From contig NZ_BMOC01000001.1 in assembly GCF_014646875.1 (NCBI RefSeq), positions 349,410-413,409 on the forward strand: a DNA stretch of 64,000 nt, given 5' to 3'. Shown in pieces: positions 37,051 through 49,687 of the stretch; the stretch's first letter is position 1, and each line of letters opens with the position of its first letter. A program made the translations under genes and the position numbers. The notes beneath the pieces are model-generated. The model had not been told where the DNA came from. It saw only the letters and a list, made by a program, of their open reading frames with translations, and did no database searches. This stretch comes from Halobellus salinus (GTDB taxonomy: Archaea; Halobacteriota; Halobacteria; Halobacteriales; Haloferacaceae).

Positions 37051-38339
37051 GGCTCTTACCGAAGATAGCGAAACAGTCCTCTCTGGATTCTGTTAAGACA
37101 TGCTGTGCAAGATACACGGCGCTTATTCAGCACGGCTCGCCCCAGTTTGGCTGTTTCGCATCTTCGCCCTCGAATCCTGCCAACTTATCGAAATCGCCCG
37201 GCATGGAACTAATCTGCTCAACACACCACCCGCTGATATCCTGATTAAACGACCCAGCCATAAGGAACATCATCAACATATCTGTGACGCTGCTGGTGTC
37301 CCACTCCCCGATATCCTGATTAAACGACCCAGCCTCAGCGAACATCCCAAACATGTTTGTGACGCTGCTGGTGTCCCACTCCCCGATATCCTGATTAAAC
37401 GACTCAGCCATAAGGAACATCCTCTTCATATTTGTGACGCTGCTGGTGTCCCACCCGCCGATATCCTGATTAAACAACCCAGCCTCAGCGAACATCTTAT
37501 TCATACTTGTGACGCTGCTGGTGTCCCACCCGCCGATATCCTGATTAAACGACCCAGCATCCCTGAACATCGCCAACATAGTTGTGACGCTGCTGGTGTC
37601 CCACCCGCCGATATCCTGATTAAACGACTCAGCCCCGGCGAACATATACAACATACTTGTGACGCTGCTGGTGTCCCACCCACCGATATCCTGATTAAAC
37701 GATCCAGCATCCCTGAACATCGTCCGCATAGTTGTGACGCTGCTGGTGTCCCACCCGCCGATGTCCTGATTAAACGACTCAGCACGGAAGAACATCCCCC
37801 GCATAGTTGTGACGCTGCTGGTGTCCCACCCGCCGATGTCCTGATTAAACGACCCAGCCCCGGCGAACATCCCCAACATATCTGTGACGCTGCTGGTGTC
37901 CGCATTTGTTAGGTCAAATTCGCTCACGGCTGTCCCAACTTGGTCCTCGGTGAATGAACTCTCGCCAAAATTATGTTCTGAAAGTTCGCCATCCCCGAAT
38001 AACTCGCTGCTATCCGGGGGAAGCACCACACTCACTTCCTCTTCAGCAGTCTCTGTTCCTTCAGCAGTATCCGTCTCTTCAGCAGTATCCGTCTCTTCAG
38101 CAGTATCCGTCTCTTCAGCAGTATCCGTCTCTTCAGATGCACCGCACCCGGCAGTTCCAACTGCGCTTAACGCAGCGATTCCTGTAATGAACTGACGCCT
38201 ATCTGGCATAATGGGAAATTCATCTAAAGAGCAAAAGAATTAATGATAAGTCATACTGGTGTACACTTCTATATCTTGCATGCCAGCTAGTAGCAATATC
38301 AGCAGCCTGTCTGTTGTTTCACCAGATTAGGCAAGAGCC
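37051..38339. mobile_element. 1289-bp transposase-less cassette with terminal inverted repeats carrying a BspA-like gene
   Basis: The left end begins GGCTCTTACCGAAGATAGCG. The right end, read inward on the minus strand, begins GGCTCTTGCCTAATCTGGTG. About 19 of the first 26 positions match, including GGCTCTT and a GAAACA block. It is flanked by an 8-bp direct repeat, CTCAGGAA. The only gene inside is the lipoprotein gene at 37127-38209; I see no transposase. An 8-bp duplication with such ends is reminiscent of IS1595-type elements, but the family is a guess. It therefore looks like a mobile insertion cassette moved in trans. Confidence 0.8.
37127..38209 (-). CDS. BspA-like (DUF285) repeat lipoprotein, passenger of the cassette
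   Basis: The 360-aa protein has a Tat-type signal ([18 protein letters not shown]) and a lipobox ending TAGC near residue 22, so it is probably exported folded and lipid-anchored outside the cell. A low-complexity linker of four DTAEET units (18-bp DNA repeats) follows. The body is eight full copies of a 25-residue BspA/DUF285 repeat ([19 protein letters not shown]) with partial copies at both ends, and ends [15 protein letters not shown]. Such repeats form elongated surface proteins that bind other surfaces or proteins; the function here is unknown. It is transcribed against the interrupted helicase and is the only gene of the cassette. Confidence 0.85.
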
Positions 38340-43113: not shown

Positions 43114-43239
43114 CCCTCCACGCCCACTTTGGACTATAGCCTCTGTTGAGGTTCCAGCGTTGGGGGGAGGTTTCGGCAGGTGTGCTGAGAGCGAGGTGTG
43201 GATCCCGTGCAGTTAGCTAATCGCTTGCTATTGCCTGAG

Positions 43240-44301
43240 GGTGTAATAGAACTCTTCTCACACCGTGATGATCGTGCTTCCCGGATTGTCTCCGCATTCG
43301 TAGTTGGTGATTGCGACGACGAGGCGAAGGCACAGCGCGAGGGACACTTGTGCTCGCGCGTGGACGCGGCCTCGGGCGTGCGTTCGCCCGAGGCCGCAGT
43401 GCTTCACTGATTCGTTGGTTCGTTCGACTCCAGTACGGCGGTTGTACGTCCCATCCAACGTGGACTACTTCAGCTGTACGTCCTCGCTGTGTTGTTCGGT
43501 GCGGTTTTCGACCCTGTACTCGATGTCTTTCGGGTCGTCGGTGTTTCGCGCGTTGTACGGGGCGACTGGCACGACCCCTGCGGCCAGCAGGTGGTCGTGC
43601 CAGTCAAGCGTGTCGTAGGCGCTGTCACCGACCATCCAGATCGGCTTGGCGACAGCGAACGCGTCACGCGTGACGCGCATCGCCGTCTCCTCTGGCGCTT
43701 GTTTGCTCTCGGTGAACTCAGCTGCAATCGGGATCTTTTGCCCGGTCGAGACGATTGTACAGCCGTAGCCGTGGTAGTACTCGTCGTCGGTTGGATCATA
43801 GCACTTCAATGCGTCTTGATCGGCAGGCATCGCCCTCACATCTGTTGAATCGATGCAGTATGTCGAGTCGAGCAGGCCGCCCGGCCCGGCCCGCTCGACG
43901 AGCCGGTTGAGGACTTCGTCAACAACGTGTTCAAGATCAGTGAGAAAGCGATCGAGCGCGTCTCTCGACGGCGGTCGATCGAACCCACAACTCAGCCAGA
44001 CAACTGTGTTCCGAAGCTTCCGTTCAACGGGACGAATCCCGTAGATGTCCTTGTAGTAGCAGTGGAGAAAGCCACGCATCAGCGCTGGTGGCTCGTGGTC
44101 TCGTGTTCGCCCCGTCTCCGCCGGGGCGAACACGTCGAACTCTTCAGAAACTCGAAGGAGAGATGCTCAAACAGCACTAGCGTCTCTGTCTCTACGACAT
44201 TGAAGAACGAGTCTACCGAAGGGTCATCTTGCAGGGTCGCTGAGTCCATACCACCTCAGCCTTCGCCCTGCTCTTTGGTGTGCTACTCGTTCTATGACAC
44301 C
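43240..44301. mobile_element. Decayed insertion sequence (DDE transposase), about 1062 bp
   Basis: The ends are imperfect 25-bp inverted repeats: GGTGTAATAGAAC...CACACC at 43240-43264 and, on the minus strand, GGTGTCATAGAAC...CACACC at 44301-44277 (19 of 25 identical). No target duplication is visible. The single gene inside is broken. A haloarchaeal ISH element of the IS4/IS5-type DDE group is likely; the exact family is uncertain. Confidence 0.75.
43258..44249 (-). pseudogene. Transposase pseudogene with frameshift and internal amber stop
   Basis: Read from the ATG at 44249, the first 40 codons (MDSATLQDDPSVDSFF...HLSFEFLK) lose frame at about 44142, where one G appears to be missing. The protein then continues in another frame from 44133 (VFAPAETGRTRDHEPP...) with the DDE-type blocks YCIDSTDVRAMP and WMVGDSAYDTLDWHD. 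It stops at TAG 43465-43467 after EDVQLK. The same frame continues two codons later with LDGTYNRRTGVERTNESVKHCGLGRTHARGR to 43258, the usual C-terminus with the catalytic Glu region. An inactive transposase is the clear reading. Confidence 0.85.
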
Positions 44302-44341
44302 GTTTAAAACTATGTACTAGCATACCGAACCAACACGGCAC

Positions 44342-48645: not shown

Positions 48646-48714
48646 GGTCGGCGCTATGCGGCACTAATCTATAATAATCACTATGACGCGGTCAGTACGG
48701 AGCTGATACTGTCT

Positions 48715-49107
48715 AGTGTGTCATAGAAGGGTTCACACACCGTGTTCTGGTCTTCGATAAACTGCCAATATAGAGGCTATATCCATCGACGTGTGACTTC
48801 GTGTGCGACAGTTGTCGGAATGAAGATCCAGAGGAGAACGAATCCGATCGTCTCAGGAGATGGCGCGGAGTCCACGAAGCCACTGTAGAAAAACAACGCT
48901 CCTGTGGCGATAACTGCGACAACGGTTGAGATGTATTGCGGATCAAGCCACGAGTTCGGAACGTCAGTCTCTGACATTAGCGGCCCTTCGTCATAAATTC
49001 GTTAAATGATTGCTATATCTAACGACGACTGCGCACAATCACCGAGCCACTGTTGCAAATCGAATGTCGATGAGATCAAACGCCCGTGAACGATTCTATG
49101 ACACGCT
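48715..49107. mobile_element. 393-bp element with inverted repeats like the nearby IS, enclosing a small gene
   Basis: The left end AGTGTGTCATAGAAGGGTTC and the right end, read inward on the minus strand, AGCGTGTCATAGAATCGTTC match in about 19 of 22 positions. Both share GTGTCATAGAA with the ends of the IS at 43240-44301. Inside is only the small minus-strand gene at 48777-48977. No target duplication was found. This looks like a MITE or a small passenger cassette mobilised by that IS family. Confidence 0.65.
48777..48977 (-). CDS. Small two-helix membrane protein (66 aa)
   Basis: The product MSETDVPNSWLDPQYISTVVAVIATGALFFYSGFVDSAPSPETIGFVLLWIFIPTTVAHEVTRRWI has two clear hydrophobic helices (residues about 17-33 and 43-58) joined by a short polar loop, and a basic tail. 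I do not know the family. It is the sole content of the inverted-repeat element at 48715-49107, which is unusual for a MITE and suggests a passenger gene. Confidence 0.5.
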   Translation of the reverse strand: MSETDVPNSWLDPQYISTVVAVIATGALFFYSGFVDSAPSPETIGFVLLWIFIPTTVAHEVTRRWI

Positions 49108-49687
49108 GTTGATGGCTATACTCACATGAGCAGTTCCGCCGCACCGTACTGGCGGAATCGCTCATGAAGTGATAGCCGACAGGAGTCCGACTGGCTGCAA
49201 CGGCGATTACGGGTGGGCGAGTATGTCAATACTGCTATCAATATTGGTGCTTTTGTTCAACAGTGCCACCATCGTGCCCGTCTGCAGCTTGGTTCCCCTA
49301 TCGATGAGCCGGTATCGCCCCATACACTATAATTATATTTGATGATAAATCCGAAACACGGGCGAAATTTACACATGTAGATATCGATTTTAAATGGGAT
49401 TTTCGCATCTATCCACATATGAGCGCCTACCCCCGAACTGAACTTGTGGATGATAGTTTGCTATCGAGGGTTACGCTGTCGGGCGTTGCCCATCGACCCG
49501 AGGTAGTGACACAGCAAAAGCGGGCGTGTTCAGTCAGGACACCTCTGTCCGGTACAACTGTGAGGCGTCGGCCCGTTCCCGGGAGACGACTCTCGGGTGG
49601 TGGTTCGATGAGTGGACAGCGTTTTGAGACCGCTTCGGGCTACAACTGTCCGGGTTTGGGCATAGGTATCCATACGGGGGGGTCTCG
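49108..49687. other. Gap before the giant surface protein
   Basis: An imperfect 14-bp inverted repeat (TGAGCAGTTCCGCC at about 49126 with GGCGGAATCGCTCA at about 49150) forms a hairpin. From 49325 to 49400 the DNA is strongly AT-rich (TATAATTATATTTGATG) and is the likely promoter region. A 90-codon frame at 49419-49691 overlaps the next start but has no protein-like features; I do not call it. Confidence 0.5.

Follow-up and report, generated by a model that had tools for sequence, protein, structure and literature searches.

The 395-bp element at positions 48714-49108 of the window, by which we mean the whole 64-kb stretch of DNA analysed here, is most probably (roughly 0.87) a mobile insertion cassette (MIC), in which a gene for a two-helix membrane protein was captured between two ISH11-type ends and moved in trans by an ISH11-type transposase. 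It combines two IS-type inverted ends and a real passenger gene with the absence of a transposase, and its mobility as a unit is indicated by a copy at a non-homologous site, the only such copy found.

Extent and ends of the element

The first-pass annotation had described a MITE-sized element with IS-related ends enclosing a small membrane-protein gene. This description held, as the element has 22-nt repeats, lacks a transposase and recurs as a unit in a second genome of the genus (G099). Its proposed extent, 48715-49107, was confirmed as well, except that the alignment with the G099 copy adds one base at each end. The features of the element and its source are as follows.

48714-49108, no strand: whole element, 395 bp, probable ISH11-ended mobile insertion cassette without transposase (bounds from the alignment with the G099 copy)
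48715-48736, plus strand: left terminal inverted repeat (inverted-repeat comparison and motif excess)
49086-49107, minus strand: right terminal inverted repeat (inverted-repeat comparison)
48703-48713, no strand: left outer flank CTGATACTGTC, equal to the left flank of a 3.7-kb sister element on contig C9, including the duplicated GATACTGTC
43237-44304, minus strand: decayed ISH11-type IS of the IS5 family (222-aa transposase ORF, DDE_Tnp_1, end motifs)

The terminal inverted repeats are 86% complementary and share the core GTGTCATAGAA. When one mismatch was allowed, this core matched the window four times, once at each end of the element and once at each end of the decayed IS, with the single mismatch at the left end of the latter. 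Shuffling of the window gave 0.45 matches on average and four matches in none of 100 shuffles, so that the ends are indeed common to the element and the decayed IS, as had been proposed. A chance origin of the element ends is ruled out by the motif controls, which comprised window shuffles, the own genome and the whole order. The element has a G+C content of 0.49, compared with 0.63 for the window, and the ORF list contains no transposase ORF inside it, the longest internal ORF being 77 codons. No target-site duplication of at least 6 bp was found at the window copy, also when the ends were allowed to slide by 4 bases. The 6-9 bp duplication of ISH11-type insertions is thus absent here, and our claim is one of ISH11-type ends and not of a fresh ISH11-type insertion.

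Two observations concern the left flank. The string CTGATACTGTCTAG is common to the left flanks of the window element (48703-48716) and of the 3.7-kb sister element (L056 2752-2765, G000:C9), and this common flank may reflect a repeated target or recombination. Just outside the left end, at 48679-48690, the sequence CACTATGACGCG looks like the decayed right end of a further element of this kind.

The passenger gene

48777-48977, minus strand: passenger gene, 66 codons, two-helix membrane protein (ORF, homologues, alignment, AlphaFold hairpin)
49001-49006, minus strand: TTTAAC, candidate archaeal TATA box of a leaderless transcript, -29 to -24 from the ATG

The 66-codon ORF for a two-helix membrane protein is present as annotated, and its homologues and the AlphaFold model agree with that assignment. 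The model shows a helical hairpin (mean pLDDT 81.3, pTM 0.54) with helices at residues 8-11, 13-35 and 41-65, and an alignment of 20 sequences shows invariant V22, P54, R63 and R64; the product would be a helical-hairpin membrane protein. Pfam gave no match up to an E-value of 1, and the sole match in NCBIfam was far below the cut-off. A viral origin of the passenger was considered and rejected, as it had no phage match and no PHROG match and none was confirmed in viral contigs; one homologue, L005, matched phrog_3457 weakly (E 0.022), a family whose function is not known. The TTTAAC lies 24-29 bases upstream of the ATG, which we take to be the TATA-box spacing of a leaderless haloarchaeal gene, and the passenger may be transcribed from its own promoter within the element. 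The dN/dS between the window passenger and the G099 copy is 0.34, a value that supports selection on the passenger only weakly because the G099 side is frameshifted.

A second copy at an unrelated locus

The element DNA was sought in 99 genomes, the own genome included, with up to six candidate places scored per genome. This search for further copies with the same ends and gene, which the first-pass annotation had suggested, returned one whole copy, in G099, with 81% identity over 48714-49108 and no match beyond. Comparison of 4.6 kb around this copy with the entire window showed the element to be the only common part. No further whole copy was found among the 98 other genomes besides that in G099, and none in plasmids; in G202 the match was limited to 34 bases at one end of the element. 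As the G099 copy has the same bounds and unrelated flanks, the unit has moved with these ends. No target duplication of at least 6 bp was found at the G099 copy either, and its passenger gene carries a 4-nt deletion that breaks the frame.

We also considered that a resident gene might lie between remnants of two separate ISH11 insertions, which would then never have formed a single mobile unit. The missing target duplication at the window copy and the lack of ISH11-type ends at most loci of passenger homologues are in line with such an arrangement. It does not account for the G099 copy, where both ends and their spacing are preserved at an unrelated locus, and the flanks of the window element had no orthologous or empty site in 16 other genomes of the genus, only short matches. 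We therefore give this arrangement almost no weight and retain the mobile insertion cassette.

Relatives of the passenger in other genomes

The passenger family was present in 25 of the 170 family genomes searched, the own genome included, and further matches were obtained in Salinibaculum litoreum and in nine plasmid records. The end motif (at most one mismatch) was found within 300 bp at four of 27 homologue loci outside G099, a number reached in none of 200 trials with shuffled end motifs (mean 0.17). Three of these loci, L012, L013 and L022, have one decayed ISH11-type end each in the right orientation, with resemblance to ISH11-type ends extending further inwards, and L012 has weak end motifs on both sides of the homologue; in the fourth, L030, the orientation of the motif is wrong. 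L012, L013 and L022 may thus be decayed cassettes in three more genomes, and they slightly raise our confidence in the MIC reading.

According to the first-pass annotation, occurrence of the small gene in conserved positions without the inverted repeats would refute a mobile passenger element. Such positions do exist, since six homologue loci (five in a single other genus and the sixth in this one) share one conserved neighbour gene; set against them are the decayed ends at the three loci above. Taken together, the loci without ends and the loci with decayed ends show that the passenger family is partly resident and partly mobile, resident in some genomes and having travelled in others. On the Haloarcula plasmids pNYT1 and pNG100 (L177, L178) an integrase gene directly adjoins the passenger homologue. 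An integrase as common neighbour was rejected, as searching 30 loci with these two Haloarcula integrases gave no match.

These data bear also on whether the element is an ordinary MITE whose ORF is incidental and without function. Its size and ends are MITE-like and the ORF is frameshifted in G099; yet homologues of the ORF occur in 24 other genomes of the 170, the 20 aligned sequences have invariant residues, the G099 copy agrees in ends and content, and sister elements carry recognisable genes. A strict MITE has a non-coding interior, and this element holds a gene of a conserved family. We consider an ordinary MITE very unlikely, and the mobile insertion cassette remains the preferred reading. 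For this cassette we envisage that two ISH11 ends captured a gene of the haloarchaeal pool, that weak selection would keep the passenger for a time, and that it would decay in some copies, as suggested by the frameshift in G099.

An ISH11-type IS as source of the ends

The transposase ORF of the decayed IS is 91.9% identical to an ISH11-family (IS5-like) transposase of H. salinarum pNRC100, and its identity to any plasmid record is at most 92.3%. The same motif lies at both ends of the ISH11 of pNRC100. An ISH11-type transposase of the IS5 family would recognise the ends in trans and shift the unit as a block. The assembled genome yielded two ISH11 transposase matches, neither of them intact, namely the decayed copy of the window and one on contig C17 with an internal TAG; an intact copy could be missing from the 54-contig assembly. 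For Haloquadratum, passages of one report describe moved MITEs without a functional copy of the matching transposase (PMC3119063). The missing duplication at both copies, the restriction to two whole copies and the lack of an intact ISH11 transposase count against the MIC reading.

A locus of G099 (L120; G099:C1:2091160-2092251) contains an ISH11-type copy that kept the N-terminal part of its transposase, with a lipoprotein-like ORF beside it and an assembly gap between the two. This is possibly a snapshot of cargo capture, or else an assembly artefact.

Sister elements in the same genome

The end motif had 20 matches in the own genome and one in the control. Fourteen of the 20 form seven paired elements with differing contents:

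397 bp, two copies: ribbon-helix-helix (RHH) gene
462 bp: small multi-helix protein
629 bp: small multi-helix protein
395 bp: window element, two-helix membrane protein
1175 bp: FAD oxidoreductase-like gene
3.7 kb, contig C9, with the 9-bp duplication GATACTGTC: HTH regulator, DUF7521 protein and two ORFs without Pfam family

None of the four ORFs tested in the 3.7-kb element is a transposase. Two unpaired matches near contig ends read like the RHH element, and the right end of the decayed IS is among the remaining four.

The first-pass annotation had counted two passenger-carrying, transposase-free elements within 12 kb, the other being a cassette at 37051:

37051-38339: element with ends GGCTCTTACC / GGCAAGAGCC and a minus-strand gene for a 360-aa repeat protein

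This cassette does carry a passenger. It is of another type, with the ends given above and an 8-bp duplication, CTCAGGAA, and so is not a sibling of the window element. As read by eye, it sits in a helicase-like gene.

A class with exchangeable small cargo across the order

Together with elements from several families of the order, the window element forms a class whose small cargo is exchangeable. Paired ends at a spacing of 368-398 bp were detected in 16 of the 392 order genomes searched (31 elements), at 401-461 bp in six of 392 (seven elements) and at 462-522 bp in four of 195 (four elements), and the control, in which the end pattern was read backwards, gave none in any of the three ranges. 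We read 16 of the 31 elements in the shortest range (one per genome), all seven at 401-461 bp and three new ones at 462-522 bp. The 16 elements comprised 13 with an RHH gene (one partial) and three with a small multi-helix protein. Of 37 elements of the class, 21 have a target duplication of 6-11 bp, compared with one of 1332 exchanged flank pairs; the other 16 have no duplication of 6 bp. This count omits L112, L120-L125, C9 and L143-L145, the last three being repeats of L111, L113 and L126. Two 141-bp elements in another genome (L117 and L118; G098:C3:959586-959726 and 1469928-1470068) are copies of a gene-free MITE that shares the ends of the class, with duplications of 7 and 6 bp, respectively.

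The cargo of the class across the order is mostly a CopG-type RHH protein or one of various unrelated small proteins, which mostly have at least two predicted membrane helices. The RHH protein scores above the PF01402 cut-off, and its median dN/dS is 0.09 (90 of 91 pairs used, from 14 sequences, with L126 and L140 left out). By eye, GTGCAC-type palindromes were seen near both sides of the RHH gene in L126, L127, L133 and L135-L146, and these are possible operators for the RHH protein.

An ORF with at least two predicted helices, counted by a hydropathy window and not by a trained predictor, was present in 13 of the 18 non-RHH elements of 359-629 bp (12 of 15 plus one of three), the five without it being L115, L147, L153, L169 and L172. 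The count omits L112 (1962 bp), L114 (1158 bp), L116 (an RHH remnant), L117 and L118 (no gene), L120 (a chimera with an assembly gap) and the large elements of C13 and C9; L119 was counted via its 141-codon ORF, and its 91-codon ORF may be the real gene. Shuffles of 19 elements yielded a multi-helix ORF in 13 of 1900 cases, shuffling being a weak control for genes. Measured against annotated small genes of two plasmid stretches, of which three of 11 were multi-helix, the excess is modest (one-sided Fisher p 0.023, small sample).

Among the 13 multi-helix cargo proteins a clear relationship exists only between those of L131 and L149 (56% identity, with hosts of different families), and a weak one between those of L134 and L150. 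A homology of the passenger to the L134 cargo, suspected by eye, was rejected at an hhalign probability of 0.2%. A Haladaptatus plasmid also has the L131 cargo, and one end matches there at an equal spacing; no left end was found there within two mismatches. The L128 and L150 cargo had no homologue in the plasmid collection, which leaves their capture from elsewhere a supposition, a point against the MIC reading. Other cargo includes a protein with weak zinc-ribbon matches below the cut-off (L114) and a cysteine-rich protein (L153).

Alternatively, the cargo may work to the benefit of the element, for instance in controlling the transposase or keeping out rivals, and not be a random pick-up of host genes, a notion that is compatible with the MIC reading. 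The purifying selection on the RHH cargo and the single physical type of most non-RHH cargo speak for it; the cargo proteins are, however, mostly unrelated to each other, and elements of the own genome also hold an oxidoreductase or several genes. We regard such a role as rather unlikely.

Relation to known elements

MIC231 and its relatives of Bacillus cereus (IS231, IS4 family) have IS-type ends and a passenger, lack a transposase and are moved in trans. The window element resembles MIC231 in its IS-type ends, its passenger gene and the lack of a transposase, and its movement in trans would be a further likeness. It differs in its ISH11 (IS5 family) ends and its archaeal host, and its end type holds many differing small passengers. 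Transposase-free elements with a coding passenger are accordingly a known kind, MIC231 being cited in sections of PMC6542083 and PMC2266710, and MICs are so named in a section of PMC3129680.

In haloarchaea a close comparison, made by description, is ISH2, which is about 520 bp long, transposase-free and has a protein-coding ORF; parts of PMC3119063 report this ORF as expressed, and parts of PMC10264941 describe ISH2 as mobilised in trans by ISH8, with ISH8 ends and 10-bp duplications. The window element differs from it by its ISH11-type ends. ISH11 itself shares the terminal motif with the window element and the duplication lengths with the class, duplications of 6, 8 and 9 bp being tabulated for its insertions in PMC10264941, and differs in that it encodes its own transposase while the window element encodes none. 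The same source gives MITEHsal2 of Halobacterium salinarum a length of 413 bp where the duplication is 8 bp and of 411 bp where it is 6 bp. The listed ISH11 lengths suggest that one duplication is counted in, which would make MITEHsal2 405 bp long, exactly as long as the RHH sister element on plasmid pHSAL2 of H. salinarum 91-R6. To judge by length and host, this RHH cassette is probably already listed as MITEHsal2; it differs from the window element in that an RHH gene replaces the two-helix membrane-protein gene.

In titles and abstract openings, with few subscription papers among them and ISfinder outside the scope of the search, we found no description of ISH11-ended cassettes with exchangeable cargo. 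What is new is the ISH11-ended family with exchangeable small-protein cargo; transposase-free passenger elements were already known.

A broader and tentative proposal, which we hold to be possible and not yet probable, is that ISH11-type ends are a general haloarchaeal vehicle, in which a single end type, mobilised by a single type of transposase, would time and again have picked up and distributed unrelated genes of less than about 110 codons. These would mostly code for helical-hairpin membrane proteins and RHH regulators and would benefit the element or the host in a common way.

If the cassette reading is right, a part of the haloarchaeal orphan genes for small membrane proteins and regulators has spread via IS-derived cassettes, which annotation takes for non-coding MITEs or overlooks. 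There would then be a testable route to the patchy distribution of such genes, and the elements whose ends and cargo are intact could be taken directly into transposition assays.
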